Shown piece by piece: positions 12,407 through 44,988 of a stretch of DNA of 48,320 nt. This stretch comes from a virus. The translations under genes were made by a program, and so were the position numbers. The notes below the pieces were generated by a model, which saw only the letters and a program-made list of their open reading frames with translations, did not search any database and was not told the DNA's origin. Within the stretch, counting starts at the first letter, position 1. Each line of letters opens with the position of its first letter. The DNA lies in the IMG/VR virus record IMGVR_UViG_3300034407_003054, positions 1 to 48,320 of that record; one strand, 5' to 3'.

Positions 12407-12437
12407 GTATCAAGGTTATACTTGAATACCAATTAAC
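12407..12437 (+). promoter_or_regulatory. gp32 leader hairpin/pseudoknot-like element
   Basis: GTATCAAG (12407-12414) pairs with CTTG(A)ATAC (12421-12429) around the loop GTTATA; the loop bases GTTA (12415-12418) can pair with TAAC at 12434-12437, giving an H-type pseudoknot. It lies 31-61 nt before the gp32 start and is followed by an unstructured A/T-rich stretch and AGGAG. T4 gene 32 mRNA has a pseudoknot at about the same distance, which nucleates gp32 binding and autogenous repression. The second stem here is only 4 bp, so the pseudoknot is a proposal. Confidence 0.4.
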
Positions 12438-12467
12438 AATTAAACATAAAATAATAGGAGATAAATA

Positions 12468-15466: not shown

Positions 15467-15644
15467 AAAGAGAAAATACCATAGTGAAAAAGAAAGACGA
15501 GATGCTCAAAGAAAATGGCAGATGGAACATTACAAAAGAAATGCAGATGAGATAAGAGCAAAGGCTCGTCAAAAATATCGTGATAAGAAAAGAAAAGAGT
15601 TTTATGACAAGAAAGTACAAGATATGTATGGGAACATTGAGTGA
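15459..15644 (+). CDS. Small, very basic helical protein
   Basis: A 61-residue protein, almost all Lys, Arg, Glu, Gln and Tyr (MGRKRKYHSEKERRDAQRKW at the start, then a KARQKYRDKKRKEFYDKK stretch). It is likely one long basic helix and resembles the DNA-contacting helical part of HNH proteins without the HNH core. It overlaps RNase H by 8 nt and the radical SAM gene by 4 nt (GTGA), so it is embedded in the operon. A nucleic-acid-binding role is inferred from composition only. Confidence 0.5.
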   Translation: MGRKRKYHSEKERRDAQRKWQMEHYKRNADEIRAKARQKYRDKKRKEFYDKKVQDMYGNIE

Positions 15645-20338: not shown

Positions 20339-20364
20339 ACAAGTAAACAAACAAGGAGATGATT

Positions 20365-23103
20365 ATGAACTATCGTAATCTTATCGCATCTGTAGTACTT
20401 ATGACTGGATTGTTCGCACAATCTATTCACGGAGTTATTACTGATGTAGACTCAAATCCACTTGAAGGAGCTAATGTTGTAGTTGTTGGGACAGATTTAG
20501 GTGCAGTATCTAATGAATTAGGTATCGCACATATTGAAATTCCAGCTGGAACCTACGATGTAACTGCTTCTTTTATTGGTTACTCTACTCTAACTCAATC
20601 AGTTGTAGTTGGAGAGGGTATGGCTACATTAAATTTCATATTGGATTTTGATGTGGTTGAACTAACAGATGTAGAGGTGTTAGCATCTCGTGCATCTGAA
20701 ACTACACCTGTTGCTTACACTAATGTTAGTAAAGAAGAAATGGAAGTGAGATTAGGTTCTCAAGATATTCCAATGATTCTTAATACTACACCAAGTGTAT
20801 ATGCGACTCAACAAGGTGGTGGTGCGGGTGATGCTCGTATCAACATTCGTGGTTTCAATCAAAGAAATGTTGCAGTGATGATTAATGGTGTTCCCCAAAA
20901 TGATATGGAGAATGGATGGGTTTATTGGTCTAATTGGGATGGTGTAGGTGATGCTACATCTTCAATTCAGGTTCAAAGAGGTCTATCAGCTGTTAATCTT
21001 GCTACACCTTCTATTGGTGGAACTATGAATATAATTACCGACCCAACATCATTTGAAAAGGGTGGGAAGTTCAAACAAGAAGCTGGTGATGGTGGTTTTC
21101 TGAAAACTACTTTCAACTATAATACTGGTCTCATTTTAAATGACAAGTTGGCTTTGAGTGGAACTATTGTTCGTAAAACTGGTGATGGAATCATTGATGG
21201 AACTTGGACAGACGCTTGGGCATACTACTTTGGTGGTAGTTATGCAGTAAGTGAAAACCAACGATTTGAATTATATGCCATCGGTGCTCCACAACGACAT
21301 GGACAGAATCTATACAAACAGAATATTGCAACTTACTCACAAGAGTTAGCTGGTGATACAGATGGATATGATACTGATGCATTTGCAGAAGGTAACAAAT
21401 TCCAAACTGAAGCTGGTAGATTTTTCAATCAGAATGTCGCACCAATTGACCCATCATATACAGGTAAACAATATTGGTATATGTATGGTGCAAATAAATC
21501 CAATAGGTTCAACAAGAACTTCTTGAACGAAAGAGAAAACTTCTTCCATAAACCATTAGTGAATTTAAATCACTTCTTAACTATCAATGATAAAACAAGA
21601 TTAAGTTCTGTTTTATATTGGAGTGGTGGTTCTGGTGGTGGTACTGGTACATATGGTAGTGTATCAAGACAACCAGCAGTTGAAGGAGAAAGATGGTATG
21701 CAAGTTCACCTTGGACTTGGGATTGGAATGCAGAGATTGCACAAAATTCCGACAACATTGATGAGAACTTTTCTACTACTGAAAATCGTTCAACAGGAAT
21801 TCTTCGTAATTCTATCAACAGACAAGATACATATGGTTTGATTTCAAAATTAAACTACGATGTAAGTGATGTTTTAGCATTACAAGTTGGATTAGATTGG
21901 AGAACTGCTCGTATAGAACACGCTCGTGAAGTTCGTGATTTATTGGGTGGTGATTATTATGTTGATTATGCAGACGATAACTTTGAAGAAGGTAAAGTCG
22001 TTAGACTCGGTGACGAGATTGCATATCACAATGAAACAACCGTAGATTGGATTGGTGGATTTGTCCAAGGTAACTACACAACAGAAAAACTAAACCTATA
22101 TGGTATGGGTGGTGTTTCTTCTATTGAGTATAGTTATCAAGACCATTTCACTATAGAGGATGCAGTAGTAACTGCAGACCCAATCACTACTTACCAAGTT
22201 AAAGGTGGTGCATTATATAATGTAAATGAGAACCTTGGAGTATTCATCAATAGTGGATATGTCCAAAAGGCTCCCATTTTAGATAATGTTATTACTTTTG
22301 ATGGAACCGTAGCAACCGACCCTGATAATGAGAAATTCTTACATAATGAGTTTGGTGCAAACTTCGGTACACAAAAACTTGGAGTTAGAGTTAGTGCATA
22401 CAATACTGATTGGCAAGATAGGAACCTTACAAAATCTGTACAAACAGGTCAAGGTTCATCAGGTGATACTGATGTTATCTTCCTAAAAGGTGTAAATCAG
22501 AAACACCAAGGTCTTGAGATTGAAACTAAGATTCAACCAAATGATATGGTAGAACTTGACTTAATCGCAAGTTTTGGTAATTGGAAATTTGATGGTGATG
22601 CCGATGGTACTTACCAAGAAAATGAGTACAATGATGAAGGCCAAGTGATTGGTTATCAGACTACTGATTATGCATATGCACTTGATGGATTATATGTTGG
22701 TGATATGCCACAGACTGCCTATATTTTAGGTGTTACTCTTAAACCGATTAAAGGATTAAGATTACAGGCATTGTACAAAACATATGACAAAAACTATTCT
22801 GATTGGTCGCCATCAGCTCGTGAATTTGACGGAACGAATGACGACGCAGATAGAAGTCAAGTATGGGAAGCCCCAGGTTACTCAAAACTTGACTTACACG
22901 CATCATATAAACTTCCTATCAAGGGATACGACATTTCTTTAAATGCTCATGTATTCAACGCACTTGATGAAGTATTTGTACAAGATGCAGTTGATAATAG
23001 TCAATACAATGGTTATGGTTCTAAGGAACACTTAGCACATAACGCAGAAGTATTCTTGGGTACACCAAGATATGCAAACATTGGAGTTTCTATTAACTTC
23101 TAA
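20365..23103 (+). CDS. TonB-dependent outer-membrane receptor
   Basis: A 912-residue complete TonB-dependent receptor. Residues 1-19 (MNYRNLIASVVLMTGLFAQS) form a Sec signal peptide; 20-95 is a carboxypeptidase-regulatory-like beta domain (GVITDVDSNPLEGANVVVVG); a TonB-box-like ELTDVEVLA lies near 99-107; the plug spans about 115-230 with INIRGFNQRNVAVMINGVPQ; the rest is a 22-strand-type barrel ending in NIGVSINF with the terminal Phe of the BAM signal. Such receptors import scarce nutrients in FCB bacteria. ATG 20365 fits AAGGAG at 20353-20358; ATG 20359 directly abuts it. Ala GCT and Arg CGT codons look commoner than in the neighbouring phage genes, which suggests capture from a host. A terminator follows. 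Confidence 0.93.
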   Translation: MNYRNLIASVVLMTGLFAQSIHGVITDVDSNPLEGANVVVVGTDLGAVSNELGIAHIEIPAGTYDVTASFIGYSTLTQSVVVGEGMATLNFILDFDVVELTDVEVLASRASETTPVAYTNVSKEEMEVRLGSQDIPMILNTTPSVYATQQGGGAGDARINIRGFNQRNVAVMINGVPQNDMENGWVYWSNWDGVGDATSSIQVQRGLSAVNLATPSIGGTMNIITDPTSFEKGGKFKQEAGDGGFLKTTFNYNTGLILNDKLALSGTIVRKTGDGIIDGTWTDAWAYYFGGSYAVSENQRFELYAIGAPQRHGQNLYKQNIATYSQELAGDTDGYDTDAFAEGNKFQTEAGRFFNQNVAPIDPSYTGKQYWYMYGANKSNRFNKNFLNERENFFHKPLVNLNHFLTINDKTRLSSVLYWSGGSGGGTGTYGSVSRQPAVEGERWYASSPWTWDWNAEIAQNSDNIDENFSTTENRSTGILRNSINRQDTYGLISKLNYDVSDVLALQVGLDWRTARIEHAREVRDLLGGDYYVDYADDNFEEGKVVRLGDEIAYHNETTVDWIGGFVQGNYTTEKLNLYGMGGVSSIEYSYQDHFTIEDAVVTADPITTYQVKGGALYNVNENLGVFINSGYVQKAPILDNVITFDGTVATDPDNEKFLHNEFGANFGTQKLGVRVSAYNTDWQDRNLTKSVQTGQGSSGDTDVIFLKGVNQKHQGLEIETKIQPNDMVELDLIASFGNWKFDGDADGTYQENEYNDEGQVIGYQTTDYAYALDGLYVGDMPQTAYILGVTLKPIKGLRLQALYKTYDKNYSDWSPSAREFDGTNDDADRSQVWEAPGYSKLDLHASYKLPIKGYDISLNAHVFNALDEVFVQDAVDNSQYNGYGSKEHLAHNAEVFLGTPRYANIGVSINF

Positions 23104-26222: not shown

Positions 26223-26954
26223 ATGGATAAAAACAAATTAGTTGGGTTTATCAACAAATATCATCTTGGTGGAGAAATAAAATCTACTAAGATTGAATCA
26301 AATGGAAAGTCACTTACAACAAGATTTATCTCTGGTGATAAGTCTGTAGTTGGTAGTGTTAAAATGGATAAGTTTGATGCGTTTGACCCAAGTGAGATTG
26401 GAGTTTATAATACTTCACAATTATTATCACTACTTTCAGTAGTTGGTGATGATGTGGACTTTACAATAGATAACATGGGTGGAAAGTTTGTATCACTACA
26501 AATGAAAGACTCAGGTCATGGAACAACATCAAAATATATGTTGAGTGACTTAAGTGTTATCCCAACACCACCACCACTAAAAAACTTACCAAGTGAATTT
26601 GAATTAGAATTGAAATTAGATTCATATTTTATTGGTACATTTATTAATGGTAAAGGTGCCTTACCTGAAACTGAAACATTTACAATCATTGCAGACAATG
26701 ATAAAGTAAATATTGTAATTGGATTTTCTAACATTGCATCCAATAGAGTTACAATACCTGTTAGTGTAGATAACTATTCAGATATTGAACCTATTTCATT
26801 CAGTGCTGAAATGTTTTCAAGTATATTAAGTGCGAATAAAGAATGTCAAAATGCAACTATGAAAGTATCATCTGCAGGGTTATCAAAGATTAACTTCTCA
26901 ATAGATGATTATGAATCCGAGTATTATTTAGTATCAACACAATCTAATACATAA
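26223..26954 (+). CDS. 45: Sliding clamp gp45
   Basis: The 243-residue protein has the length and pattern of T4-type gp45, a trimeric PCNA-like ring that tethers gp43 to DNA and, in T4, also activates late transcription. Supporting features are the alternating beta-strand pattern, FDAFDPSEIGVYNTSQLLSL near residues 40-60, the acidic stretch DDVDFTIDN, and its place directly before clamp-loader genes. It has an AGGAG site. The stop overlaps the next start (TAATG). Sequence identity is low, as usual for this family, so context carries part of the call. Confidence 0.82.
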   Translation: MDKNKLVGFINKYHLGGEIKSTKIESNGKSLTTRFISGDKSVVGSVKMDKFDAFDPSEIGVYNTSQLLSLLSVVGDDVDFTIDNMGGKFVSLQMKDSGHGTTSKYMLSDLSVIPTPPPLKNLPSEFELELKLDSYFIGTFINGKGALPETETFTIIADNDKVNIVIGFSNIASNRVTIPVSVDNYSDIEPISFSAEMFSSILSANKECQNATMKVSSAGLSKINFSIDDYESEYYLVSTQSNT

Positions 26955-28174
26955 TGTATTTATCGTACTTTGACAAATTCTATGATATGGAACCTTATCT
27001 TTTCATAGATGAGGTTGAGTGGGAGTATATCAAAAACACCTTTGATAAACAAGATGTAAGAGAGAGTCTTGCAAAGGTCGCGATGTCCTACCCACCACCA
27101 TACATGGATATATCCGAAAAGGATGCATTAAAACAACTTCAGAAACTAAAAGGAATGAGACATAATGAAATTTTAGTTGAAGGAGAATGGTTTGCTCGTG
27201 AGGGTACAGAGTACAGATATGATTTAACTTTTGAGGGTAAACAACAATACTTCAAAAGAAATAATACAGGTAATGATTCAAGTAATTATTTCCAACAGAA
27301 GAATCGTTGGAGTGTTGATGGTACAATTGCACCTGGCCCACATAGAACATGGGAAAGTCATAAGTTTATGACAACATTAATTGGGTCTGCATACTCTCTA
27401 AAGTTACCTAAGATTGATAAGAGTGCATTTCGTGTAATGATTGGATTGAGAAAATATATTTGTTCTCAATTTAAACCAAATGTTGCAAAGGTATTGTATG
27501 ATAAGTTAGAGAGTAAAAGTATCTTAGACTTTAGTGCAGGTTGGGGTGATAGACTTGCAGGATTCTATGCAAGTGAAACAGGTGAGTTTTACATGGGTAT
27601 AGACCCACGAAAAGAAAATCATCCCATCTATGAAGAACAGAAACAATTTTATGATAAACATAGAACTATGTTTGAAGTTCCTAAGAAAAGTTTATTTATA
27701 GAATCACCTGCAGAGGACTTTGAATACAAAGAAAATATGTATGATACCGTATTTACATCACCACCTTACTTTAGTGTTGAGAGATATAGTTATGATGATA
27801 CTCAGAGTTGGGTAAGATATAAAGATATTGATACATGGAATACTCAGTTCTTACAAAAAACATTAGAAAAAATCTGGCCTTCTATAAAAAGTGGTGGATA
27901 TTTATTAGTGAATATTGCAGATGTATTTGCACGAACAGGTGGACAAAGAAACATGGTAGAGATATGTAATCCTATGAATGATTTCTTAAGTACACTTAGT
28001 GATTCAGAGTATCAAGGTTGTATTGGTATGGAGATGGCAAAGAGACCGAATAGTGGTGGTGCAGGAATGGCACGAGAGTCAGATGAAAGGTTTCAAGACT
28101 CTACAATAAAAAGAGCAGAAGAAACTAAAGATAAAAGATTTTGTGAACCAATTTGGATTTGGAGAAAGTTATAA
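26954..28174 (+). CDS. DNA methyltransferase-like protein (SPPY motif)
   Basis: A 406-residue Rossmann-fold methyltransferase. SILDFSAGWGDRLAG (about 189-203) is the SAM-binding motif I, GIDPRKEN is motif II, and VFTSPPYFSVERY (about 268-280) is the motif IV SPPY catalytic loop of amino-methyltransferases acting on adenine N6 or cytosine N4. The N-terminal 150 residues could recognise the target. No restriction enzyme is adjacent, so it probably protects phage DNA or modifies it for other reasons. It is coupled to gp45 and gp44 on both sides by TAATG overlaps, an unexpected place between clamp and loader. Confidence 0.75.
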   Translation: MYLSYFDKFYDMEPYLFIDEVEWEYIKNTFDKQDVRESLAKVAMSYPPPYMDISEKDALKQLQKLKGMRHNEILVEGEWFAREGTEYRYDLTFEGKQQYFKRNNTGNDSSNYFQQKNRWSVDGTIAPGPHRTWESHKFMTTLIGSAYSLKLPKIDKSAFRVMIGLRKYICSQFKPNVAKVLYDKLESKSILDFSAGWGDRLAGFYASETGEFYMGIDPRKENHPIYEEQKQFYDKHRTMFEVPKKSLFIESPAEDFEYKENMYDTVFTSPPYFSVERYSYDDTQSWVRYKDIDTWNTQFLQKTLEKIWPSIKSGGYLLVNIADVFARTGGQRNMVEICNPMNDFLSTLSDSEYQGCIGMEMAKRPNSGGAGMARESDERFQDSTIKRAEETKDKRFCEPIWIWRKL

Positions 28175-29097
28175 TGGATGAAATTAAAAATTCCCTATGG
28201 GTAGAAAAGTACCGACCTACAAGTCTTGACACTTATATAGGTAATGAACACCTAAAAAGTAAGGTCAAGTTATATCTTGAGAGTGGAGATTTACCACACC
28301 TTCTATTGTTTGGTAGGGCTGGTACAGGTAAAACCACTCTCGCTAAGTTACTCGTCAATAACATTGAATGTGATTATCTATACATCAATGCATCTGATGA
28401 GAGAAAACTTGAAATGGTAAGAGACAAAGTAAAAAACTTTGCCTCTACTATTGGGTTTTCAAATATGAAAGTTGTGATTCTTGATGAGGCAGATTACATT
28501 ACACCTGCATCACAGGCCGCTCTTCGTAATCTTATGGAAACTTTCTCAAAACATTGTAGGTTTATCTTAACTTGTAATTATGTTGAGAGAATCATTGACC
28601 CAATACAATCAAGGTGTCAATCATTTCAGATTATTCCACCAGATAGGAAACAAGTTGCAGTACATCTAAGTGATATCCTACAAAAAGAAAAGGTTAATGC
28701 AAAGGTTGATGATATTGTAACAATAGTTAATAGTGGTTTTCCTGATTTAAGAAGAGTAATCAATGGTGCACAGAGACAAGTCGTGGATGGTAAGTTGGTC
28801 ATTGATGAGGGAATGAGTATACAAAATGACTATAAGGTAAAGGTATTAGAGATACTCAAGACACAAGACAAAAAGAATTCTTTTAAGAATATAAGACAAG
28901 TACTGGCAGATTCAAAGGTAACAGATTTCTCTGATTTATTCAGATTGTTATTTGATACCGTAGATGATTGGGGTAAAGGTCATGTTGCAGAATGTATATT
29001 GGTATTAAGTCAATATCAACAAAGTGACGCAGTAGTAGTAGATAAAGAGATAAACATTATGGCGATGTTTATAGAAGTATTAGGAGTAATAAAATGA
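28174..29097 (+). CDS. 44: Clamp loader large subunit gp44
   Basis: A 307-residue AAA+ ATPase that opens the gp45 ring. Walker A GRAGTGKT is at 47-54, Walker B VILDEAD at 101-107, and the SRC motif (QSRCQSF) with the arginine finger near 148. ATG 28174 is chosen over TTG 28153 because GGAG lies 9 nt upstream and the ATG overlaps the preceding TAA. The start motif WVEKYRPTSLDTYIG is standard for RFC-type loaders. Its partner gp62 lies 3.9 kb downstream, separated by an accessory cassette. Confidence 0.93.
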   Translation: MDEIKNSLWVEKYRPTSLDTYIGNEHLKSKVKLYLESGDLPHLLLFGRAGTGKTTLAKLLVNNIECDYLYINASDERKLEMVRDKVKNFASTIGFSNMKVVILDEADYITPASQAALRNLMETFSKHCRFILTCNYVERIIDPIQSRCQSFQIIPPDRKQVAVHLSDILQKEKVNAKVDDIVTIVNSGFPDLRRVINGAQRQVVDGKLVIDEGMSIQNDYKVKVLEILKTQDKKNSFKNIRQVLADSKVTDFSDLFRLLFDTVDDWGKGHVAECILVLSQYQQSDAVVVDKEINIMAMFIEVLGVIK

Positions 29098-29324
29098 ATG
29101 ACGAAAGACAATATCAAGAACCATTAGATATTTCAAAGGCAGATACAATTCAATGTGAAGAGTGTGGAAACGCATCCTTTATACAATCGTTCTTTTTGAA
29201 AAGAGTATCAGCATTGATGAGTCCAAATGGTAAAGAAGCAATTATACCAATACAAGTATTCGCTTGTGGTAATTGTGGTTCAATACCAAAGAATATGATG
29301 AGTCAAATTCAACCGAGTGAGTAA
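29094..29324 (+). CDS. Zinc-ribbon protein
   Basis: A 76-residue protein with CEEC (about 21-24) and CGNC (about 56-59), a two-knuckle zinc ribbon with 31 residues between the knuckles. Such small ribbons follow clamp-loader genes in other T4-like marine phages as I remember them; in T4-type transcription, small zinc proteins can contact polymerase, but no function can be assigned here. It has TAGGAG before its start, overlaps gp44 by 4 nt, and its stop overlaps the next start. Confidence 0.65.
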   Translation: MNDERQYQEPLDISKADTIQCEECGNASFIQSFFLKRVSALMSPNGKEAIIPIQVFACGNCGSIPKNMMSQIQPSE

Positions 29325-30736
29325 TGTATACTAAAGTTGGAGATGGACTACAAGTAGTAAGTGGTGACATAGTTAAGAGTTTAGTTGGTTTAGAGAATCT
29401 AACATACAAGATGTCAGAAGAATTCAACTCTGAAAGACTATGGACACCATCTCATCTTTCCATGGACAATGCCTACAAGACAGGATACATGGAATCATTC
29501 TCACATCAAGTATCTATAATTAATTCATACCATGGTGAAGAAAAAGGAATGTGTTCACCTACAGGATGTTATCATTGTTATAGTTTCTTAAAAGATAAAA
29601 GTGTTACAGATAAATCTTATGTAATGACAAGTAAATGTACACGAATAGAAGAAGAGTGCAATGATTTAGAAAGAATGTTTAATTTCACTATATCAGAGAT
29701 AGTGTTTGTTGGTACTGAGAAATATTGTGAGGATAATTTAAATAAAGCAATGACTTTAACATCACAAATGTTAGACCAACTTGGTATCAAATATTTTTAT
29801 GAAGTTGCATCAGACCCATTCTTTGGTGATAAATCAGAGTTAAAAAGAAAAGTACAAATCAAAAGTGGTTCTAAAATTGAGATTAGAGCATGGATTCCTA
29901 ACGAGGATAGACATGTTGCAATAGGTTCATTTAATCTACATGGTAGGAAGTTTATTGATAAATTTAGTATACAAGATTCAGAGATGACTGCATGTTTTGG
30001 TTGGGGATTAGAAAGATTTGTAGATGTTGTAAGTAAGTATGACAAAACCATAGATGAAACTAAAATCAATTTCAACTTCAAAAATGATAACACTTTTATA
30101 CCTGAAATTAGAAAAAATATAATTGATGATTCTAATGGTTGGTTATGTGATAACCATCAGACATATTGGTTTGGTAGAAAACCTATACATGAATATGAAA
30201 TCCAAACACCAGATATTGGTGAGGTTGTCTATGAAGACATTGATACACTTGAACAACTTGATGGGTGGACATGGGAAATTCTACAAGGACTCAAAGAGTG
30301 GGACAGATTGAACATGAAGTGGATTAACGAAGAGACAAGAAAAACTTGGTTATGGGATTTAGAAACTGCAAAGAAAAGAATACAAGATGGACACAATTTA
30401 TGTGCAATGTTTTACGAGGGTAAACTGATACAATGGAATTGGTGGTTTATGGGTGAATTTACTTTTTATGACCATGAGTGGAATATTGATATGAACTTAC
30501 CTAAAGACCATTCTTATGGTGGATATTGGGCATGTTTACCTAAATACAGAACTTCAAGAAAACATGGTAAACTGATAGAACATTTCTACACTTATATTAC
30601 AAACTATCTTATTAGAAAGAATATAAAATATGACTTGGCATATGTTGATGGTTGGAATAATAAGGCAATCAGTATACACAAGAAAATGGGATATGTGGGT
30701 TACAATTGGATGAAAAATGAAAACTTTCTCAAATAA
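29324..30736 (+). CDS. Amino-acid:carrier-protein-ligase-like domain fused to GNAT acetyltransferase
   Basis: A 470-residue two-domain protein. Residues 1-240 match the class II synthetase-like amino acid:[carrier protein] ligases: GCYHCYS (81-87), KCTRIEE (104-110, motif 2), EVASDPFFGDK (160-170), a GSFNLHG segment (201-207) and MTACFGWGLERF (221-232, motif 3). In that family the order ACxPxYP, CFRHE, DVAxDPFFG, SFNYHQ, ACxGFGLER is the hallmark. The third zinc ligand (Cys before the SFN motif) is Ile here. Residues 355-465 form a GNAT domain, with KYRTSRKHGKLIEHF for CoA binding and NKAISIHKKMGYVGY at the end. I know of no described fusion of this kind. It probably activates an amino acid and acylates something. 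Confidence 0.72.
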   Translation: MYTKVGDGLQVVSGDIVKSLVGLENLTYKMSEEFNSERLWTPSHLSMDNAYKTGYMESFSHQVSIINSYHGEEKGMCSPTGCYHCYSFLKDKSVTDKSYVMTSKCTRIEEECNDLERMFNFTISEIVFVGTEKYCEDNLNKAMTLTSQMLDQLGIKYFYEVASDPFFGDKSELKRKVQIKSGSKIEIRAWIPNEDRHVAIGSFNLHGRKFIDKFSIQDSEMTACFGWGLERFVDVVSKYDKTIDETKINFNFKNDNTFIPEIRKNIIDDSNGWLCDNHQTYWFGRKPIHEYEIQTPDIGEVVYEDIDTLEQLDGWTWEILQGLKEWDRLNMKWINEETRKTWLWDLETAKKRIQDGHNLCAMFYEGKLIQWNWWFMGEFTFYDHEWNIDMNLPKDHSYGGYWACLPKYRTSRKHGKLIEHFYTYITNYLIRKNIKYDLAYVDGWNNKAISIHKKMGYVGYNWMKNENFLK

Positions 30737-30751
30737 TCAATATTTATAGAT

Positions 30752-32173
30752 ATGAATGATTCACAAAGACAAACTTACGCAAATTTATTAAAAGAAAAAA
30801 GTTTACAGGTAGGAAATCTGTTTACTGGTAGTGCTTATTGGGATAGTGAACATGAGGGTATGATATATTCCATGGATTGGATACCACAAAGTGGTTCAAT
30901 AAAACTATTAGAAATGAACACCAATACTGGACTAAGTGGTAGAATGAAACCATATTTTAATTTTAGTGAATTAGTAAGTCATATTACAAGTTCTGGTCAT
31001 AATACATGTACTTATTACGAAGACTATCTAAACTTTAATATAGAACCACAAAGAGTTGAAGACACTTTAGATATTTTTAGACAACAACTTAGTTCAAGTT
31101 TGTCATCTTCAGGATGTACATTTACTCACGAGTATAATTTATGGGATGAGATTATCCCAACGCCATCTTCAACACATTATGTATTAAGACAAGGACATTT
31201 AAATTATCATAATGTTGATATATTATGTGAGAACAAGACTACATTTCGTAATTTTATAACAGGTAGTTTAGGTGAAGATTTCTTTCCTGCATTTGGTAGT
31301 AATATTTCATCGTCATTCAGTAATCCAACAAATGTACCTGATGTTGTTATCAAAGACCCAACTGAAGATATGGGTGTGGGTGTATCTTTTACAGACTTTA
31401 CAGACGATAGGAATCAAATTTATAATAATCATAATTATGTAGAGGAATATATTGAACCTGAAATAGACAATAATAGATATAGATTATTTAGAAGTATTAT
31501 ATTGATTGGTAGTGGTAGTGTTAAATATTTAATAAAGAATCCAACTTACACAATTAACTATAGAAAATTTGGACAACCAAGTGGTTCAGTTACAATTGGT
31601 TCACAATCCACTAATATTTATGATACCAATAATATAAGAATATGGCAGACAGGACATTATGAAGGTAATACACCAGTATCAATGTCAGATGGTTCGGTAA
31701 AAACAATTGGTAGTATAGATGCAGGTGATGTGGTTAAGAGTGTAGTGGTAAACAACTATCCAAAAAGAAACACTGCATTCAAGTCATCAACAACCAATGC
31801 ATCTTGGCCTCAATTCATTCTTGATAAGGGTAATTGGACAGGTTCAATCGGTGAGTTAAGTGAATCAACAAGTTCAGTCAATAGTGTCCCACAAGTATAT
31901 TCATGGGGATATTATGAGTTAAATGGTTCTACAAGAGTAAATCCTGAAGATTCTATTATGGTTTATGATAATTCAAAATATCAATTCAAACCAATGAGAA
32001 ATGTTCAAGTTAACGATGTTTTTGTTACAAAAGGATTTGTTACACAATCAGTATCATCTATAAACTTAGTGACTTCTGAATCTATATTTTATTCATTAGA
32101 TTTAGAAACAGAAGATAGATATTTTGCAGGTGATGATACTAATTCGGTTATAACTTCCGATAGTTATTGGTAG
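30752..32173 (+). CDS. ATP-grasp-like domain fused to a Hint domain without nucleophile
   Basis: A 473-residue protein. Near the N-terminus, YSMDWIPQSGSIKLLEMNTN (39-58) looks like the metal-binding end of an ATP-grasp enzyme (E.N motif), while VIKDPTEDMGVGV (199-211) and YVEEYIEPE (229-237) look like its ATP-binding part; the order would be a circular permutation. Residues 300-473 match a Hint fold: GNTPVSMSDGSVKTIGSI, DAGDVV, VNPEDSIMVYD (HPxxV-like block), NVQVNDVFV and IFYSLDLETEDRYFAG. The splicing Cys/Ser at position 1 is His302, and no terminal His-Asn is present, so self-splicing is unlikely. No ribosome site is seen 15 nt after the synthetase-like gene. Confidence 0.55.
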   Translation: MNDSQRQTYANLLKEKSLQVGNLFTGSAYWDSEHEGMIYSMDWIPQSGSIKLLEMNTNTGLSGRMKPYFNFSELVSHITSSGHNTCTYYEDYLNFNIEPQRVEDTLDIFRQQLSSSLSSSGCTFTHEYNLWDEIIPTPSSTHYVLRQGHLNYHNVDILCENKTTFRNFITGSLGEDFFPAFGSNISSSFSNPTNVPDVVIKDPTEDMGVGVSFTDFTDDRNQIYNNHNYVEEYIEPEIDNNRYRLFRSIILIGSGSVKYLIKNPTYTINYRKFGQPSGSVTIGSQSTNIYDTNNIRIWQTGHYEGNTPVSMSDGSVKTIGSIDAGDVVKSVVVNNYPKRNTAFKSSTTNASWPQFILDKGNWTGSIGELSESTSSVNSVPQVYSWGYYELNGSTRVNPEDSIMVYDNSKYQFKPMRNVQVNDVFVTKGFVTQSVSSINLVTSESIFYSLDLETEDRYFAGDDTNSVITSDSYW

Positions 32174-32176
32174 GGA

Positions 32177-32464
32177 ATGAGTTCTTACTTAGTCGGAAAT
32201 GTTATAATTAAAGATTTTTCTGAATACAGAAAGTATGAGAGAAGAATATTTCGTTATTTAAAAAAACATAATGGTAAATTACTTGTGTATGATGATAATC
32301 CAACATCAGTACAAGGTAATATAGATGGTAGGTTATTGATTATGGAGTTTCCAACTAAAAAAAATGCATTAGAATTTTGGAATGATGAAGATTATATAAA
32401 GATGTCGGAGAAATACAGATACCATTGTAGTGAAGTACAATTTGTAACTATAATAGGAGATTAG
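32177..32464 (+). CDS. DUF1330-family small protein
   Basis: A 95-residue ferredoxin-like alpha/beta-barrel type protein. The pattern YLVGNVIIKDFSEYRKYER, a central GRLLIMEFPTKKNALEFWND and a final strand SEVQFVTIIG matches DUF1330, a dimeric fold seen in small enzymes and binding proteins of unknown role. It lies 3 nt after the ATP-grasp/Hint gene and 1 nt before the GNAT gene, so it belongs to the same cassette. Possible role: binding an intermediate; nothing catalytic is visible. Confidence 0.65.
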   Translation: MSSYLVGNVIIKDFSEYRKYERRIFRYLKKHNGKLLVYDDNPTSVQGNIDGRLLIMEFPTKKNALEFWNDEDYIKMSEKYRYHCSEVQFVTIIGD

Positions 32465-32465
32465 T

Positions 32466-32957
32466 ATGTATGTATTAGAACATAAAGAGATTCCATTTAG
32501 TAGAATGGAAGAGATAAAAGAAGATACACCAGAGTTAGATATTTTTTATGAACCTGATATGAAAAACTTTGAATACTATGATTCCGATGGAACACCAATA
32601 GGAATGTATATTATTTACAGAAATGATAAAAAAAATGTTGTTTGCGGTAGGAACTATTATATTTATAAACAACAGAGAACTAAAGGTTGGGGTTTGAATT
32701 GTATACTATCTTGTATCAATTATTCCTTTCAATTATATCCAGATATTGATATATTTTGTTGGTCTACTCATGTAGGTAATAAAGTTATGGACAGAATATG
32801 TTCAAAGATATATGAGAAAACAAGGACAGAAACCAATAATCCAAATATATTTGGTTTCAATGAACCACCACCATCAGAGTTACATTCAGTTACACGAAAA
32901 TATATGGAAAACTTTAATAAAAAGTATCCAAAGGGTTTTAAAAGGTTTAAAATATGA
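32466..32957 (+). CDS. GNAT-like acyltransferase
   Basis: A 163-residue protein with the core of a GNAT fold: GTPIGMYIIYRNDKKNVVCG (strands 2-4), RTKGWGLNCILSCINYSF (about 70-87, the CoA-binding loop and helix), DIFCWSTHVGNKVMDRICSK (strand 5 and helix 4). The P-loop-like R.KGWG is close to the usual Q/RxxGxG/A. It may acylate the product or target of the cassette. It overlaps gp62 by 4 nt (ATGA). A second in-frame ATG lies at 32470; the first is used here. Confidence 0.6.
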   Translation: MYVLEHKEIPFSRMEEIKEDTPELDIFYEPDMKNFEYYDSDGTPIGMYIIYRNDKKNVVCGRNYYIYKQQRTKGWGLNCILSCINYSFQLYPDIDIFCWSTHVGNKVMDRICSKIYEKTRTETNNPNIFGFNEPPPSELHSVTRKYMENFNKKYPKGFKRFKI

Positions 32958-33388
32958 GTAAAGTTAAAGGTTTATTTGACCATGTAAAACAAATCACAAA
33001 TGTACAGAGTCCTACATATTGGGATACATTAAGTGAGGGTGATAAAAAGACATTTAGTAATTACATGATTCATAGATTTCTTAGTATGAAGTCAGAATGG
33101 ATTCAAGTTGTAAATGAGGTACAGAAATATTGGGAGTTGGCTCCTAAGAATGTGTATCAGTTTTATATTGATGTACTACCAAGAGGTAGAACTTTCCTTA
33201 AATACACAAAGTCAAAACATAAGTCAAAAGTAAATCCATGGGTTATGGAACACTTGACAGATTACTTTGAATGTAGTTCAAAAGAAGTAGATGATTACTT
33301 GGAGATATTGACACCACAACAAGTAAAGACAATCATAATGAAGTATGGTGTAGATGATAAACAATTAAAAACGATATGGAGTAAATAA
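32954..33388 (+). CDS. 62: Clamp loader small subunit gp62
   Basis: A 144-residue protein. The patterns IHRFLSMKSEWIQVVNEV, APKNVYQFYIDVLPRGRTF and DYFECSSKEVDDYLEILTPQ (residues about 38-120) fit the helical gp62 of T4-like marine phages, in which short helices end with a tripartite repeat. In T4 it completes the 4:1 gp44-gp62 loader. In T4 it directly follows gp44, whereas here five genes lie between them. Its stop overlaps the clpP start (TAATG). Confidence 0.72.
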   Translation: MSKVKGLFDHVKQITNVQSPTYWDTLSEGDKKTFSNYMIHRFLSMKSEWIQVVNEVQKYWELAPKNVYQFYIDVLPRGRTFLKYTKSKHKSKVNPWVMEHLTDYFECSSKEVDDYLEILTPQQVKTIIMKYGVDDKQLKTIWSK

Positions 33389-37158: not shown

Positions 37159-38583
37159 ATGCAATTACCAAAACTACAAAAGGTATCTTCAAAACCAAAA
37201 AAGAAGAAAATCTTATTGTTGTCAGACGATTTAAGAATGCATAGTGGTGTCGGAACTATGTCAAGAGAAATAGTATTTGGAACTATTGATAAGTATGATT
37301 GGGTTCAAGTCGGTGGTGCTATCAAACATCCTGATAATGGTAAGATAGTTGATATGAATCAGGCAGTTAGGGAAGAGACTGGTGTTGAAGATGCATCATT
37401 AAAGATATATCCTATTGATGGTTATGGAAGTCAAGAAATAGTTAGACAATTATTAGTAGAAGAAAAACCAGATGCCATCCTACACTACACCGACCCAAGA
37501 TTTTGGATTTGGTTATATCAAATGGAACATGAGATAAGACAAAGTATTCCAATATTTTATTACAATATATGGGACAACTTACCTTATCCAACATGGAACG
37601 AACCATTTTATGAAAGTTGTGATTTGATTATGAATATATCTAAACAAACACACAACATAGTTCAAAATGTATGTCAGAATAAACCAAGAACAGATTGGGA
37701 TTCAACTTATATACCACATGGTATCAATGAAAAACATTTTTATCCAATCGTTGATGAAGACGAAATATTCAAAGTAAATAAAATAAGGAATGAGTTGTTC
37801 CAAGGTACAGAAGTAGACTTTTGTATACTATTCATCAATAGAAATATCAGAAGAAAGATGACTTCAGATTTAATCATGGCATTCAAAACATTTGCAGATG
37901 GATTAACAGAAGAACAAAGAAAGAAAATTGGATTTGTTTTACATACTGAACCAGTGGATAACAATGGAACAGATTTACCCGCAGTTATTGAAGAGTTATG
38001 TCCTGATTTGAATGTTGTGTTCTCAAGAGATAAACTTAATAATGAAGGAATGAATCAACTCTATAATGCAGTTGACCTTACCGTAAATATTGCATCCAAT
38101 GAAGGATTCGGATTAGGAACTTGTGAATCATTGATGAGTGGAACACCAATAATTGTAAATGTTACTGGTGGATTACAAGACCAATGTGGATTTAAATTAA
38201 AGGGTGAACACATTACTTATCAAGATTACAAAGATATTGAATCACTACACGATTGGAGAAAGTGGGAACACAATGAAGATTTAACTCATGGTGAATGGGT
38301 AAAACCAGTATGGCCGAGAACTCGTTCAGTTCAAGGTTCAGTTCCAACACCATTCATTATGGATGACAGAGTTGATTGGGTTGATGTTGCAGACGCATTA
38401 AGATATTGGTATGATAAATCACCAGAAGAGAGAAGAGAGGCAGGATTACTTGGACATGAATTTGTAACAGGTGATGATGGTATGATGAGTGCAAGACACA
38501 TGAGTGAGTTATTCATAGACCACATGGAAACTGCGTTTGAAAAGTGGACACCAAGAAAAAGTTATGAGGTACATGAAGTATGA
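37159..38583 (+). CDS. GT4-type glycosyltransferase
   Basis: A 474-residue GT-B glycosyltransferase. KKKILLLSDDLRMHSGVGTM near residue 15 is the acceptor-domain start with its Gly-rich loop, YIPHGINEKHF marks the interdomain region, and IASNEGFGLGTCESLMSGTPIIV (about 310-332) is the E-x7-E donor-sugar motif of family 4. It transfers a sugar from a nucleotide donor to an unknown acceptor. It overlaps the second GT4 gene by 4 nt. The pair probably builds consecutive linkages. Confidence 0.85.
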   Translation: MQLPKLQKVSSKPKKKKILLLSDDLRMHSGVGTMSREIVFGTIDKYDWVQVGGAIKHPDNGKIVDMNQAVREETGVEDASLKIYPIDGYGSQEIVRQLLVEEKPDAILHYTDPRFWIWLYQMEHEIRQSIPIFYYNIWDNLPYPTWNEPFYESCDLIMNISKQTHNIVQNVCQNKPRTDWDSTYIPHGINEKHFYPIVDEDEIFKVNKIRNELFQGTEVDFCILFINRNIRRKMTSDLIMAFKTFADGLTEEQRKKIGFVLHTEPVDNNGTDLPAVIEELCPDLNVVFSRDKLNNEGMNQLYNAVDLTVNIASNEGFGLGTCESLMSGTPIIVNVTGGLQDQCGFKLKGEHITYQDYKDIESLHDWRKWEHNEDLTHGEWVKPVWPRTRSVQGSVPTPFIMDDRVDWVDVADALRYWYDKSPEERREAGLLGHEFVTGDDGMMSARHMSELFIDHMETAFEKWTPRKSYEVHEV

Positions 38584-39902
38584 GTAAACCATTAATATTA
38601 GTTACAGGACCAGTTGCCACAAGAAGTGGATATGGTAACCACACAAGAGATATTTGTAGAGCATTGATTGAAAGTGATAAGTATGATATCAGAATCCAAT
38701 CTATGAGGTGGGGAAGTACACCATTAAATGCATTGGAAGAACATAATCCACACCACAGAGAGATTCATAAAAGAATTTTAAAACAACCAAATCTTGAAAG
38801 ACAACCAGATGTACATTTACATATAAGTGTACCAAATGAATTTCAACCATTGGCAAAAAAGAATATTGGAATTACTGCAGGTATAGAACATACAATCCCA
38901 CCTGGTACTTGGGTAGAGGGAATGAATCGTATGGATGTAAATATTATTACATCTGAATGGAGTGCAGTTAATTTTAAGAATGTATCATATGATAAAAAAG
39001 ATAATCAAGGTCAGTTAATAGGACAACTAAAAGTTAATAGTCCGATGACTACATTATTTGAAGGTGCAGACCCTGACATATTCAAAGAAACAAATGAGTT
39101 TTCAAAACAACTTGTTAGTGAGTTTGAGAAAATATCTACTGATTGGAATTTCTTATATACAGGTCATTGGTTACAAGGTGGTTTAGGTGAAGACAGAAAA
39201 GATGTTGGTATGATGATTAAAGTATTTTTAGAAGTATTTAAGAATCATAAGAATCCACCAGGACTTATACTAAAATCAAGTAGTGCAGGATTCTCAGTAG
39301 TTGATAGAGAAGATATCAAAAAGAAGATTGATTATATCAAGAGAGAGATAAAGGCAAAAACACTTCCTAAAATTTGGTTACTACATGGTGACTTAACAGA
39401 TGAAGAGATGAATCAATTGTATAATCATCCAAAAGTAAAGGCACACTTATCATTCACTCATGGTGAAGGATTTGGAAGACCATTATTGGAGGCATCATTT
39501 AGTGGTAAACCTATTATTGCACCATGTGAAACTGGTCAAAAAGATTTCCTTGATGAAAACAATACCGTAAAACTACCTGGTCAATATGTAAAGGTTCCAA
39601 ATAGGTCTTTTCCTAAAGAATTTTATGTTGATACTTGTGAGTGGTTTGGTGTAAATTATGGACTTGCATCTCAAATAATTAGAGATGTACATAAAAACTA
39701 TACAAAGTATGCCGTCAAGGGTAAGAAACTGATGTTACTTAATAGAAGAATGTTCACTCATGATAAAATGAGAGAGAAGTTAGAACAGATAGTTGACCAA
39801 CAATTATCATCACTTCCAAAACAAGTTGACATAAAGTTACCTAACATGAAAAAGGAAAACAAAAAAGAAGAAAAAAGTTTACCTAAATTGAGGAAAATAT
39901 AA
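38580..39902 (+). CDS. Second GT4-type glycosyltransferase
   Basis: A 440-residue GT-B enzyme. PLILVTGPVATRSGYGNHTR (3-22) is the N-terminal loop, and LSFTHGEGFGRPLLEASFSGKPIIA (about 294-318) contains the family 4 E-x7-E motif. It shares the start pattern with the previous gene, but the middle parts differ, so it is a paralog with its own specificity. The C-terminal 40 residues are Lys-rich (KKENKKEEKSLPKLRKI), which may target it to membrane or nucleic acid. TAATG overlap with the next gene. Confidence 0.84.
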   Translation: MSKPLILVTGPVATRSGYGNHTRDICRALIESDKYDIRIQSMRWGSTPLNALEEHNPHHREIHKRILKQPNLERQPDVHLHISVPNEFQPLAKKNIGITAGIEHTIPPGTWVEGMNRMDVNIITSEWSAVNFKNVSYDKKDNQGQLIGQLKVNSPMTTLFEGADPDIFKETNEFSKQLVSEFEKISTDWNFLYTGHWLQGGLGEDRKDVGMMIKVFLEVFKNHKNPPGLILKSSSAGFSVVDREDIKKKIDYIKREIKAKTLPKIWLLHGDLTDEEMNQLYNHPKVKAHLSFTHGEGFGRPLLEASFSGKPIIAPCETGQKDFLDENNTVKLPGQYVKVPNRSFPKEFYVDTCEWFGVNYGLASQIIRDVHKNYTKYAVKGKKLMLLNRRMFTHDKMREKLEQIVDQQLSSLPKQVDIKLPNMKKENKKEEKSLPKLRKI

Positions 39903-40345
39903 TGTCAGAAGTAAAAACTAAATGTCCAAATTGTTTTTCTGAGAGTCAATGTTTTGAAGAATCTACTGAACACTTTATTTCCTATATTTGTTTTAAATGT
40001 GGGTTCACAAGTAATTCATATTACAAAAACGATACAGAAGAACTAAAAAAGGCAGTTGAATCATCAACACAATTAATGAATGAGATATCATTGTTTGATT
40101 ACGATAGAAAAATACATTGGTTCCCATCAGTATTAAACATGGGTAAGTTTGGAATAATTTATCCAGATGGTACTAAAAATAATTGGGTGTGGAAGTTTGC
40201 ACAAGTAACTAAGTTAACAGAAGAAGAACAGAAAGACCCACAATATGAAGGACATGAACATAAATTAGATGTTGATAATGCACAAACATATGGACAACAT
40301 GAGTTTATGGATGCATGTAAAGATATGGGAATAATTAAAGAATGA
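39902..40345 (+). CDS. Zinc-ribbon protein of unknown function
   Basis: A 147-residue protein. CPNC (8-11) and CFKC (about 30-33) make a zinc knuckle pair; the rest includes HWFPSVLNMGKFGIIYPDGT and a GHEHKLDVDNAQTYGQHEFM stretch. I associate this combination with unannotated proteins of marine T4-like phages. It overlaps neighbours at both ends, so it is co-translated with the glycan genes, though nothing suggests a role in glycan synthesis. Confidence 0.6.
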   Translation: MSEVKTKCPNCFSESQCFEESTEHFISYICFKCGFTSNSYYKNDTEELKKAVESSTQLMNEISLFDYDRKIHWFPSVLNMGKFGIIYPDGTKNNWVWKFAQVTKLTEEEQKDPQYEGHEHKLDVDNAQTYGQHEFMDACKDMGIIKE

Positions 40346-40827
40346 AGAACACAACTTGGACTCAAGTTCAACCAGGTCAAATAGTTTCTTTTGTTTATAA
40401 AAATAAAAATGAAACAAGAGGAATTAAGAGAACCGTATTGTGTTTGAGTAAAAGACATCCATATAGAAAGAAGAATGGAAGACTTACATACTTTTTTGTA
40501 GGGTTACAATTAGATACTGCCGTATCAAGACCAATAACTGCATCAAAGTTTCAATCATTGATTGAACAATTTGGTGGACTAAGTAAAGATAAAAGGATTA
40601 CAGAGGTTGGTAACTTTGAAGATACTATGTCTGCATCAGACATTAGAAAATTATATAAAACACTAAAAGATTTCATAGAGAAGTACAAAATATTCAGAAC
40701 ATACAATCTAAGAGAATGTAGAAAAAGAAGAGTTTATCTTGAAGATGATTATCGTTATTTACCAAAAGAGTCTATGGATGATTTACTATTAGAACAACAA
40801 ATCACGGAAATAGATTTTGAATTATGA
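40342..40827 (+). CDS. Unknown protein with possible SH3-like start
   Basis: A 161-residue basic protein. WTQVQPGQIVSFVYKNKNET, then RTVLCLSKRHPY and LTYFFVGLQLDT, looks like a small beta-barrel resembling the PemK/MazF-type arrangement (PGxIV ... RxVLxLS), but length and later sequence do not confirm it. The second half is helical and basic. ATGA overlap at both ends. Function unknown. Confidence 0.55.
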   Translation: MKNTTWTQVQPGQIVSFVYKNKNETRGIKRTVLCLSKRHPYRKKNGRLTYFFVGLQLDTAVSRPITASKFQSLIEQFGGLSKDKRITEVGNFEDTMSASDIRKLYKTLKDFIEKYKIFRTYNLRECRKRRVYLEDDYRYLPKESMDDLLLEQQITEIDFEL

Positions 40828-41450
40828 AAATTACTTATGGTATAACCGTTCATAACGAACACGAAGAGATAAAAAAACTACTTGAGTTTCTTGTTGAACA
40901 TCGTGATGAGGGTGATGAAATTGTCATATGTGATGACTATTCTGATTATCAATGTTGGAGAGTTTTTGATGAGTACATACATGGACAATATCCTGACATA
41001 GTTTTTTATGAACAACAATTAAATAATGATTTCGCAAAAAAGAAAAATTCAGTTATAGAAAAATCAACAGGTGACTACATATTTCATTTGGATGCAGACG
41101 AAATACCTAATGAAGTTCTCATGTCACAATTAAAAACCATACTTGAAATTAATGATGTAGACTTGATTTGGGTTCCAAGAATCAATACGGTTGATGGTAT
41201 CACACAAGACCACATCAATAAGTGGGGATGGGCAGTAACAGAAAAAGGTTGGGTTAATTTTCCTGACTATCAAAGTAGAGTTTTTAGAAACAGAGATGAT
41301 ATAAGGTGGGAGAGACCAGTACATGAAAGGATTACAGGTTGTAAGACTTACTCACATTTACCACCACATGAAGAGTTATGTATTTATCATCCAAAAACAA
41401 TAGAGAAACAAGAAAAACAAAATGAGTTATATAGTAAAATTATTAGATGA
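40824..41450 (+). CDS. GT2-type glycosyltransferase
   Basis: A 208-residue GT-A enzyme. ITYGITVHNEHEEIKKLL (2-19) and EIVICDDYSDY (about 32-42) are the nucleotide-binding start, and FHLDADEIPNEV (about 89-100) carries the DxD metal motif. It is shorter than many GT2 enzymes, but the core is complete (RVFRNRDDIRWERPVHERI follows, a pattern seen in SunS-like and WaaE/KdtX-like members). Its last 29 nt overlap the aldolase gene. Confidence 0.8.
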   Translation: MKITYGITVHNEHEEIKKLLEFLVEHRDEGDEIVICDDYSDYQCWRVFDEYIHGQYPDIVFYEQQLNNDFAKKKNSVIEKSTGDYIFHLDADEIPNEVLMSQLKTILEINDVDLIWVPRINTVDGITQDHINKWGWAVTEKGWVNFPDYQSRVFRNRDDIRWERPVHERITGCKTYSHLPPHEELCIYHPKTIEKQEKQNELYSKIIR

Positions 41451-42174
41451 ACTTAAAGACCAAGGTGTCGTAGGTATAAAACAATCATTTGAAGATGAAG
41501 GTGTGTTAGATTCAGACCTTTGGAAAATATCTAAAATATGTAGAGACTTAAACTTAAAGTTAAGTGTTAAGATTGGTGGTTGTGAGGCTATCTCTGATAT
41601 AAATCGTTGTATTGATTTAGAAGTTGATGGTATAGTTGCACCAATGATTGAGTCAAGATTTGCATTACAAAAGTTTTCAGAGTCTATAAATAAGTTACCT
41701 TATCATGGTAATAAGTTTATTAATATTGAAAGTATACAGGCATACAAGAACTTAAATGATATATTAGAATCACCTACAAGTAAAATGTTAAGTGGTATTG
41801 TAGTAGGTCGTTCTGATTTAACTAAGTCATTTGGATATGGAAAACAAGATGTCATGTCAGATGAAATTTGTAGAGTAGTAACCTACATACTACAAGAGTC
41901 AAAAAAGTTAGGAATGAAAACATATATGGGTGGAAACATTGGTACTCAAAGTATAGAATTTATTCAAGAGTTATTCAATAAGGGATTCTTAGATTGTATT
42001 GAGACACGAAATGTTATCTTGGGATTAGATGAAAGTAATATAACTGATTTAAGTAAAATCATTTCACATATGTTAGAGTGGGAATCTTTGTGGTTGGAAA
42101 GTAAGGCAACACATTATAACAGATTCTCAACAGAGTATAATACAAGGTCAAAAGAAATACAAGATAGATTATGA
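41422..42174 (+). CDS. HpcH/HpaI-family aldolase
   Basis: A 250-residue TIM-barrel enzyme. VDGIVAPMIESRFAL (about 70-84), KFINIESIQAYKNLNDIL (about 96-113) with a metal-binding Glu, and LSGIVVGRSDLTKSFGYG (about 120-137) with the Asp follow the HpcH/HpaI aldolase/citrate lyase pattern. Such enzymes make or split C-C bonds with pyruvate or phosphoenolpyruvate. In this cluster it could build a keto-sugar acid. No full NeuB-type synthase is visible. Overlaps the GT2 gene by 29 nt and the Fe-S gene by 4 nt. Confidence 0.72.
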   Translation: MSYIVKLLDELKDQGVVGIKQSFEDEGVLDSDLWKISKICRDLNLKLSVKIGGCEAISDINRCIDLEVDGIVAPMIESRFALQKFSESINKLPYHGNKFINIESIQAYKNLNDILESPTSKMLSGIVVGRSDLTKSFGYGKQDVMSDEICRVVTYILQESKKLGMKTYMGGNIGTQSIEFIQELFNKGFLDCIETRNVILGLDESNITDLSKIISHMLEWESLWLESKATHYNRFSTEYNTRSKEIQDRL

Positions 42175-43295: not shown

Positions 43296-43638
43296 TTTTG
43301 ATGGTTGTTTAGCAGAATTTGATTTTCCAAATATCGGAGAACAAACTTCAAAACAAAAAACATTAATGAATATTTTAAAAAAATTACAAGACAAAGGACA
43401 TAAATTAATATTATGGACAAGTAGAGGTGAACCTGCACTACAAGAAGCAATTGATTGGTGTGAAGAAAAGGGATTGATATTTGATATGCATCAAGTTAAT
43501 CCATTTACCAAAAAGATATCAGGACCCAGTCCTAAGATAATTGCAGACTATTATATTGATGATAAGGCATTAGAATTTGGTGATAATGAATCACGAGACA
43601 GAACACTATTTTTATTGGAGAGATTGTTAGATGAGTAG
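43267..43638 (+). CDS. HAD-superfamily phosphatase
   Basis: A 123-residue HAD enzyme. AVDFDGCLAEF (about 7-17) holds the nucleophile Asp and the DxD, ILWTSRGEPALQEAIDWCEE (about 47-66) is motif II with Thr/Ser, and ADYYIDDKAL (about 95-104) is the acidic motif IV. The cap is minimal. The start at ATG 43267 has AAAGGTG before it; GTG 43258 overlaps that site. It likely removes phosphate from a sugar intermediate, given the cytidylyltransferase next to it (overlap by 8 nt). Confidence 0.8.
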   Translation: MGQTLIFAVDFDGCLAEFDFPNIGEQTSKQKTLMNILKKLQDKGHKLILWTSRGEPALQEAIDWCEEKGLIFDMHQVNPFTKKISGPSPKIIADYYIDDKALEFGDNESRDRTLFLLERLLDE

Positions 43639-44979: not shown

Positions 44980-44988
44980 GAGATAAAG

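Follow-up and report, generated by a model that had tools for sequence, protein, structure and literature searches.

An insertion slot beside the clamp-loader gene gp62 carries exchangeable, putatively biosynthetic cassettes in a T4-like phage lineage

The DNA analyzed here, IMG/VR virus record IMGVR_UViG_3300034407_003054, is 48,320 bases long and has T4-type replication genes; the whole stretch is called the window. Between its clamp-loader genes gp44 (28153-29097) and gp62 (32954-33388) lie five open reading frames (ORFs), all on the plus strand, four of which form the cassette under study. An earlier note on this DNA, made from the letters alone, had described these four as tightly packed and co-directional, and the ORF coordinates (29324-30736, 30752-32173, 32177-32464 and 32466-32957) bear this out: the intergenic gaps are 15, 3 and 1 bases, and the last ORF overlaps gp62 by 4 bases. 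The note had also taken gp44 and gp62 to be split by the cassette. Four genes do lie between them, but so does a 76-aa zinc-ribbon protein (ZnR), which the note omitted and which persists in the absence of the cassette. In the cyanophage used for comparison, gp44 and gp62 are also non-adjacent; a glutaredoxin and a small gene other than ZnR lie between them. The genes and domains of the interval are as follows, with the E-values of family matches in brackets.

28153-29097, plus strand: gp44, clamp-loader ATPase, left landmark (phrog_168, 8.5e-83)
29094-29324, plus strand: ZnR, 76-aa zinc-ribbon protein (two CxxC pairs in the sequence)
29324-30073, plus strand: gene 1, class II synthetase core, amino acid:[carrier protein] ligase-like (PF00587, NF005479 and 3MEY matches)
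30209-30736, plus strand: gene 1, C-terminal GNAT domain (hhalign against GNATs at the same position)
30752-31642, plus strand: gene 2, putative circularly permuted ATP-grasp domain (residue pattern D42 and E54-x-N56 before K162, K201 and E231)
31643-32173, plus strand: gene 2, Hint domain (family matches of relatives and Foldseek; without nucleophile and without C-terminal VHN)
32177-32464, plus strand: gene 3, DUF1330 protein, variable cassette position (PF07045, 3.3e-14)
32466-32957, plus strand: gene 4, GNAT2, second GNAT-like protein (PF00583, 0.044, sub-threshold)
32954-33388, plus strand: gp62, clamp-loader small subunit, right landmark (phrog_225, 2.2e-17)

To collect loci, we searched with gene 1, with gene 2, with a gene for an ANL adenylating enzyme and, as the less biased query, with gp44; the ZnR-gp62 interval was annotated in them. 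A profile scan of IMG/VR with gene 2 gave 161 stretches, of which 80 were retained, and the gp44 search retained 80 of at least 591 relatives; 14 overlapping loci were excluded prior to clustering. Dereplication at 95% reduced the 103 loci with a complete interval to 69. Of these slots, 47 contain a cassette with a relative of gene 2 (the Hint protein), another 19 contain nothing and the remaining 3 a single small ORF; the filled fraction is biased because it pools cassette-fetched and gp44-fetched loci. When only the gp44-fetched loci were considered (40 after dereplication), the close relatives, whose gp44 is at least 79% identical, had 18 filled and 7 empty slots (n = 25), and the more distant relatives had 0 filled, 12 empty and 3 other slots. 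Since it is kept between gp44 and gp62 in the empty sites, ZnR is a backbone gene, whereas the cassette has been inserted. The stretch from ZnR to gp62 serves this T4-like lineage as a slot in which exchangeable, putatively biosynthetic cassettes are inserted; filled slots span 2,553-8,630 bases (median 6,535).

The family GNAT accompanies the Hint protein in 42 of the 47 filled slots and is the gene immediately upstream of it in 34 (29 free, 5 synthetase-fused). The constant core of the cassettes is a GNAT followed by the putative permuted ATP-grasp-Hint protein, and its recurrence at this site across dozens of contigs puts the slot far beyond chance. The earlier note had suggested comparing the gp44-gp62 interval across relatives for the four genes moving as a unit. 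They do not: the unit is the GNAT with the ATP-grasp-Hint protein, while the synthetase is present in 5/47 filled slots and DUF1330 in 2/47. The expectation that homologs of the cassette genes co-occur elsewhere was confirmed by the slots of other contigs. 2-Oxoglutarate-Fe(II) (2OG) oxygenases are found in 41 of the 47, immediately downstream of the Hint protein in 38, and never together with the synthetase; one further filled slot also lacks them. The ANL gene occurs in 7/47. Accessory families in sister slots include methyltransferases, sulfotransferase-like proteins, medium-chain dehydrogenases/reductases (MDR), QueC-like enzymes and Asp-hydroxylase-like proteins, besides SGNH-like genes (named by eye, no Pfam match) and radical SAM genes (B12-type by eye). 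A GT2-like gene (by eye) is inserted beside ZnR in L004 and L005, and GT413-family genes occur in several gp44-sampled slots. The version in the window, with activating and transfer enzymes fused, is rare among these cassettes. The tested genes are under purifying selection, with ratios of nonsynonymous to synonymous polymorphism (pN/pS) of 0.13-0.27 for whole genes or the ATP-grasp part; within gene 2, the Hint part (0.45) is looser than the ATP-grasp part (0.27). Two Hint proteins per slot, flanking a GNAT, were observed in L112 (11879-15068), L114 and L115.

Gene 1 encodes a 470-aa protein with a class II core (PF00587, 2.1e-7). Among NCBIfam families, it matched NF005479 (amino acid--[ACP] ligase; ACP, acyl carrier protein) at 5.7e-27, better than seryl-tRNA synthetases (2.7e-19), and a PDB search matched 3MEY at 8.5e-14. 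The score of gene 1 lies below the curated NF005479 cut-off (94.5 versus 357 bits), as does that of an ACP-linked cellular relative (L255, 136 bits). When three phage sequences were aligned with one bacterial and one faecal-phage relative, C82, R107, E109, E125, C224 and R231 proved invariant. C82, E125 and C224 are predicted metal ligands, and R107 and R231 belong to motifs 2 and 3 of the class II core. After a 20-residue tag offset, the three predicted ligands align with the zinc-ligand positions of the 3MEY chain, which we take to be C131, E176 and C279 of Bll0957. The amino-acid-activating domain called in the earlier note is therefore upheld, the metal-site and class II residues being intact. 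The C-terminal part was compared by hhalign with GNAT groups from the same cassette position and matched c60 at 91.6% (E 8.2e-7) and c51 at 62.3%. The synthetase-GNAT fusion was found in 7 contigs, and a single match to gene 1, at 27%, was obtained among cultured phages. The predicted structure is poor (AlphaFold with 7 close sequences; mean predicted local distance difference test score (pLDDT) 35).

Gene 2 of the window had no significant family match in Pfam, PHROGs or NCBIfam. In its relatives, one to three Hint domains come after an N-terminal domain (N-domain) of ~270-330 residues. Comparison of 31 diverse N-domains shows D42, E54, N56, K162 and E231 to be invariant, with K201 conserved in at least 90%; these residues correspond to the ATP-grasp catalytic set. 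The D and E-x-N pair precedes the Lys/Glu residues in gene 2, whereas the canonical ATP-grasp order has E-x-N last; the ATP-grasp domain would therefore be circularly permuted. The sole two PDB matches of the N-domain below E 10 were ATP-grasp carboxylases (E 0.48 and 1.8), both on the D/E-x-N hairpin, and the family touched by most N-domains was CPSase_L_D2 (4/31, best 0.0033). An AlphaFold model from 32 sequences had a mean pLDDT of 43, and its Foldseek matches, treated as weak, ranged from 0.018 to 0.15 at the top, including 5oev (0.018), 7uk8 (0.029) and 2iob (0.088). Among these fold matches are eukaryotic-type glutathione synthetase-like proteins, glutathionylspermidine synthetase and YgiC; no significant sequence match to them was found for gene 2, and the model is of low confidence. 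Some ATP-grasp enzymes of these types are permuted.

The relation of the second half of gene 2 to Hint, intein and bacterial intein-like (BIL) domains came from family and fold matches: PT-HINT in L018 (8e-6, marginally below the gathering score), the TIGR01445 intein family on a later Hint repeat of L096 (3.8e-9), and inteins in Foldseek for gene 2 itself (4e-4, low-confidence model). Unlike those domains, the window copy lacks the nucleophile and the terminal VHN. The first Hint repeat is without the canonical Cys start in 12/12 listed proteins, and the window clade is also without the terminal VHN; self-cleavage in that clade is therefore unlikely, and the window Hint domain is probably unable to cleave. 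Of the ATP-grasp-Hint gene named in the earlier note, the Hint relation thus stands through relatives, and the ATP-grasp domain is likely, recognized by residue pattern and weak matches. No match to the window Hint protein or to the N-domain of a relative was found among cultured phages, and none of 71 pattern matches in bacterial genomes was a Hint-protein relative. In L036 and L042, single proteins carry three or more Hint repeats, the later ones with canonical Cys starts.

The last two genes of the cassette are exchanged even among the closest relatives, the clade of cassettes with the aminoacyl-tRNA synthetase-like enzyme (AARS clade). DUF1330 and GNAT2 are present in the window and L002; in L001, L003 and L006, a GNAT2 and a 229-aa ANL adenylating enzyme take the place of DUF1330 and GNAT2, and in L005 GNAT2 is fused to the ANL enzyme. 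The same ANL gene, 72-90% identical, lies within 2OG-type cassettes of other contigs. The earlier identification of gene 3 as DUF1330 was correct (PF07045, 3.3e-14), and that of gene 4 as a second GNAT agrees with a GNAT match that remains sub-threshold (PF00583, 0.044).

In sister cassettes, the family GNAT is fused to other enzymes. A fusion to a QueC-like PP-loop enzyme was found in 15 loci, with ZnR seen upstream in 13, an EamA-family transporter (exporter) in 9, an S-adenosylmethionine (AdoMet)-decarboxylase-like gene in 8 and an outer-membrane-like gene (label by eye) in 10. The GNAT-QueC protein had no match among cultured phages. A fusion to tryptophan halogenase (PF04820, 1.5e-98) occurs in 2 contigs: it was found in L156 and, at 100% identity, in L259 and L260, L260 being the same contig as L156. 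Its neighbors are an ANL gene and a gene for a TonB-dependent receptor. The GNAT is repeatedly joined to enzymes of amino-acid activation or modification, and this suggests that it acts on the same amino-acid-derived substrate. In L147, a phage AdoMet-decarboxylase-like gene (15302-15661; PF02675, 2e-16) was observed beside the GNAT-QueC fusion.

The cellular members of the amino acid:[carrier protein] ligase family charge a carrier protein. We found the carrier protein family PF00550 in 0/18 distinct phage records, all of which are possibly fragments; control genomes were positive in 11/14. Relatives of these ligases were found in 0/13 genomes of the probable host phylum (see below) in one set and 1/199 in another, and this single cellular relative (genome G178, locus L255) adjoins an 83-aa ACP. 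The L255 gene (1435-2534, minus strand) would be a useful enzymatic control. Compared with the known ligases (NF005479; Bll0957, PDB 3MEY), gene 1 has the same class II core, predicted Cys/Glu/Cys metal ligands and class II arginines, but it is fused to a GNAT and a carrier protein was not detected, in contrast to the cellular L255 with its adjacent ACP. GNATs use coenzyme A (CoA) thioesters. Given this and the lack of a recognizable carrier protein, the simplest explanation is that CoA would replace the carrier and the fused GNAT would take the aminoacyl group from it.

Amidoligase systems that combine ATP-grasp with GNAT were reportedly described by Iyer in 2009. Linked ATP-grasp and GNAT proteins were proposed to act in sequential amide formation and capping in the passages of Burroughs et al., 2015 (PMC4431377) on the R2K clade. 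The adjacency of the two genes is shared with our cassettes; here, in contrast, the ATP-grasp domain would be permuted and precedes a Hint domain, with a synthetase-like ligase as the fusion partner of the GNAT. For cyanophages, the relevant part of Iyer et al., 2021 (PMC7824862) presents an amino-acid/sugar modification cluster with a halogenase and 2OG oxygenases, predicted to yield a secondary metabolite or to decorate capsules. That cluster is likewise phage-borne, and a halogenase (L156/L259/L260) and 2OG oxygenases (41/47 filled slots) occur in our sister cassettes. It belongs to another phage lineage, however, and its core as described there is a carbamoyltransferase, which was not recognized in the cassettes examined here; our core is a GNAT with a putative permuted ATP-grasp-Hint protein in a fixed slot beside gp62. 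The window cassette has no halogenase, 2OG oxygenase or carbamoyltransferase. Among 16 cyanophages, 14 carry 2OG oxygenases, with prnA and speD among the sporadic genes, according to Sullivan et al., 2010 (PMC3037559). A 2010 review (PMC2984593) puts the hyperplastic region of cyanophages between g15 and g18. The slot, the Hint protein family and the synthetase-GNAT fusion had no description that we could find in the open-licence PubMed Central (PMC) literature.

We tentatively propose, at a little short of an even chance, that during infection the exchangeable cassettes of the slot make an amide-linked derivative of amino acids, of which a small molecule or a surface group is the likeliest form. 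The GNAT and the permuted-ATP-grasp protein would supply two amide-forming activities, to which activating, oxidizing and tailoring enzymes would be added in each cassette. The architecture of the slot is well supported; from the gene content, we infer the following steps. The synthetase domain may activate an amino acid as aminoacyl-AMP; without a carrier protein, it would load the amino acid on CoA or hand it over directly, and the fused GNAT domain would transfer the aminoacyl group to an amine. A second amide bond could come from the ATP-grasp enzyme. A further acyl group might be added or processed by GNAT2, together with DUF1330 here and with the ANL enzyme in relatives. The earlier note had suggested a peptide that is made or attached, which is possible, yet the sulfotransferase-like proteins, methyltransferases, halogenase, 2OG oxygenases and exporters of sister cassettes favor a tailored small molecule or surface group over a simple peptide tag. 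A more specific version, possible but rather doubtful, is that carrier-free amide synthesis, from an aminoacyl-tRNA synthetase-like ligase to CoA to the ligase's own GNAT domain, operates in exchangeable phage clusters that make and export specialized metabolites of the infected SAR406 cells.

Several points weigh against this proposal. A carrier protein could sit in an unsequenced part of the phage genomes or come from the host. An exporter turned up neither in the window nor in the two AARS-clade records tested for it (G003 and G006). The ATP-grasp assignment is weak (Pfam 0.0033, PDB E 0.48 and 1.8, pLDDT 43), and stand-alone relatives of the N-terminal half in other phages (hhalign E 9e-10) are without the full catalytic residue set. 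The last 175 residues of gene 1 have no Pfam match and agree modestly with larger GNAT groups (hhalign, c4 57.7% and c26 36.7%); of the two GNATs called in the earlier note, the first is thus supported through hhalign and the second by a sub-threshold match. Furthermore, the AARS clade consists of few close relatives (86-95% identity), so that its missing 2OG enzymes count as one evolutionary event.

Instead of a free product, the cassettes might decorate a macromolecule, for example amino sugars of host lipopolysaccharide or virion glycans, with amino-acid or acyl groups, thereby blocking rival phages or masking the virion. A long glycan-type gene run at ~37-47.6 kb of the window (by eye), the GT2-like gene beside ZnR in L004/L005 and the GT413-family genes in several gp44-sampled slots are in line with this, as are the differences between cassettes of close relatives, which recall surface-antigen loci; surface decoration is also one of the two roles proposed for the cyanophage cluster in the part of PMC7824862 that treats it. 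No sugar-nucleotide enzyme other than GT413 was recognized within the slots, however, and the exporter and outer-membrane-like genes of the QueC-type cassettes fit a diffusible product better, so that we consider decoration unlikely while giving it appreciable weight. A role in host takeover, with the synthetase-GNAT protein attaching aminoacyl or acyl groups to a protein of the host (for instance a ribosomal protein, RNA polymerase or a translation factor), appears quite unlikely. The slot does lie within the replication module, a RimK homolog is encoded in the same genome, and phage GNATs and ATP-grasp peptide ligases were proposed to modify host proteins in passages of PMC7824862 and PMC4431377; but the tailoring set (2OG oxygenases, methyltransferases, sulfotransferase-like protein, halogenase, QueC-like enzyme and MDR dehydrogenase) is far too diverse for a single protein target, and RimK is distributed independently of the cassette.

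DNA hypermodification, with a Mom-like GNAT moving an aminoacyl group such as glycyl from CoA to a DNA base, seems highly improbable. Mom-family GNATs use acyl-CoA such as glycyl-CoA, as stated in the pertinent text of PMC7824862, a DNA-methyltransferase-like gene at 26954 directly precedes gp44, and QueC-like enzymes occur in sister cassettes. Against these stand the lack of any base hydroxymethylase or kinase recognized by eye among the window genes, the PKHD/prolyl-hydroxylase type of the cassette oxygenases, and the many close relatives with empty slots. That the slot is a recombination hot spot collecting cargo by chance, with no shared pathway, would account for the rarity of DUF1330 and for the many gene families accepted; we hold it to be very unlikely, in view of the constant order of the GNAT and the ATP-grasp-Hint protein in most filled slots, the repeated fusion of the GNAT to amino-acid-acting enzymes, and the purifying selection on the tested genes.

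If the proposal of an amide-linked product is true, uncultured marine phages would have a dedicated slot for chemical innovation, and the amino acid:[carrier protein] ligase family would extend to a carrier-free, fused form. Enzymologists would have a single polypeptide combining an amino-acid-activating enzyme with a transferase, and could determine its donor and acceptor directly. Comparison of the modules that pair activation with transfer (synthetase, ANL, QueC-like and halogenase) should reveal the common substrate.

The phage lineage probably infects uncultured SAR406 / Neomarinimicrobiota bacteria. A full-length TonB-dependent receptor is encoded at 20359-23103 of this T4-like phage (Plug 8.7e-15, CarbopepD_reg_2 7.6e-14). 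It is up to 72% identical to receptors of Candidatus Neomarinimicrobiota, which make up 23 of the 25 top matches among the 80 retained of at least 571. The receptor is present in 10 of 14 lineage records tested, including a long record with an empty slot, and is therefore not tied to the cassette. No paper on phage-encoded TonB-dependent receptors was found in a phrase search of the open-licence PMC literature. Among cultured phages, none exceeded 60% identity to gp44.

The window also encodes a RimK-family ligase at 6997-7881 (TIGR00768, 2.3e-74), which the earlier note had joined to the cassette. This connection did not hold: the gene lies 22 kb away and is present in 7/18 records, irrespective of cassette type. 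A DNA-methyltransferase-like protein with an SPPY motif (26954-28174) is encoded directly upstream of gp44 and matched MTase_II in PADLOC (9.5e-7); in L018 this gene is present as two tandem copies. The four cassette genes had no PADLOC match, and a known anti-phage defence system was rejected as their identity. A radical SAM protein with a SPASM domain (15641-16771; 8.7e-13 and 2.8e-8) is encoded among the replication genes, and its homologs are located between gp44 and ZnR in some contigs. The glycan-type gene run (37159-47634, by eye) comprises glycosyltransferases, aldolase-like (41422), ferredoxin-containing (42171), cytidylyltransferase-like (43631) and NAD epimerase-like (44989) genes. 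Finally, a 700-base stretch without listed ORFs (11770-12468) contains a manA RNA (RF01745, 12082-12263) scoring 67.9 bits, above the gathering score.

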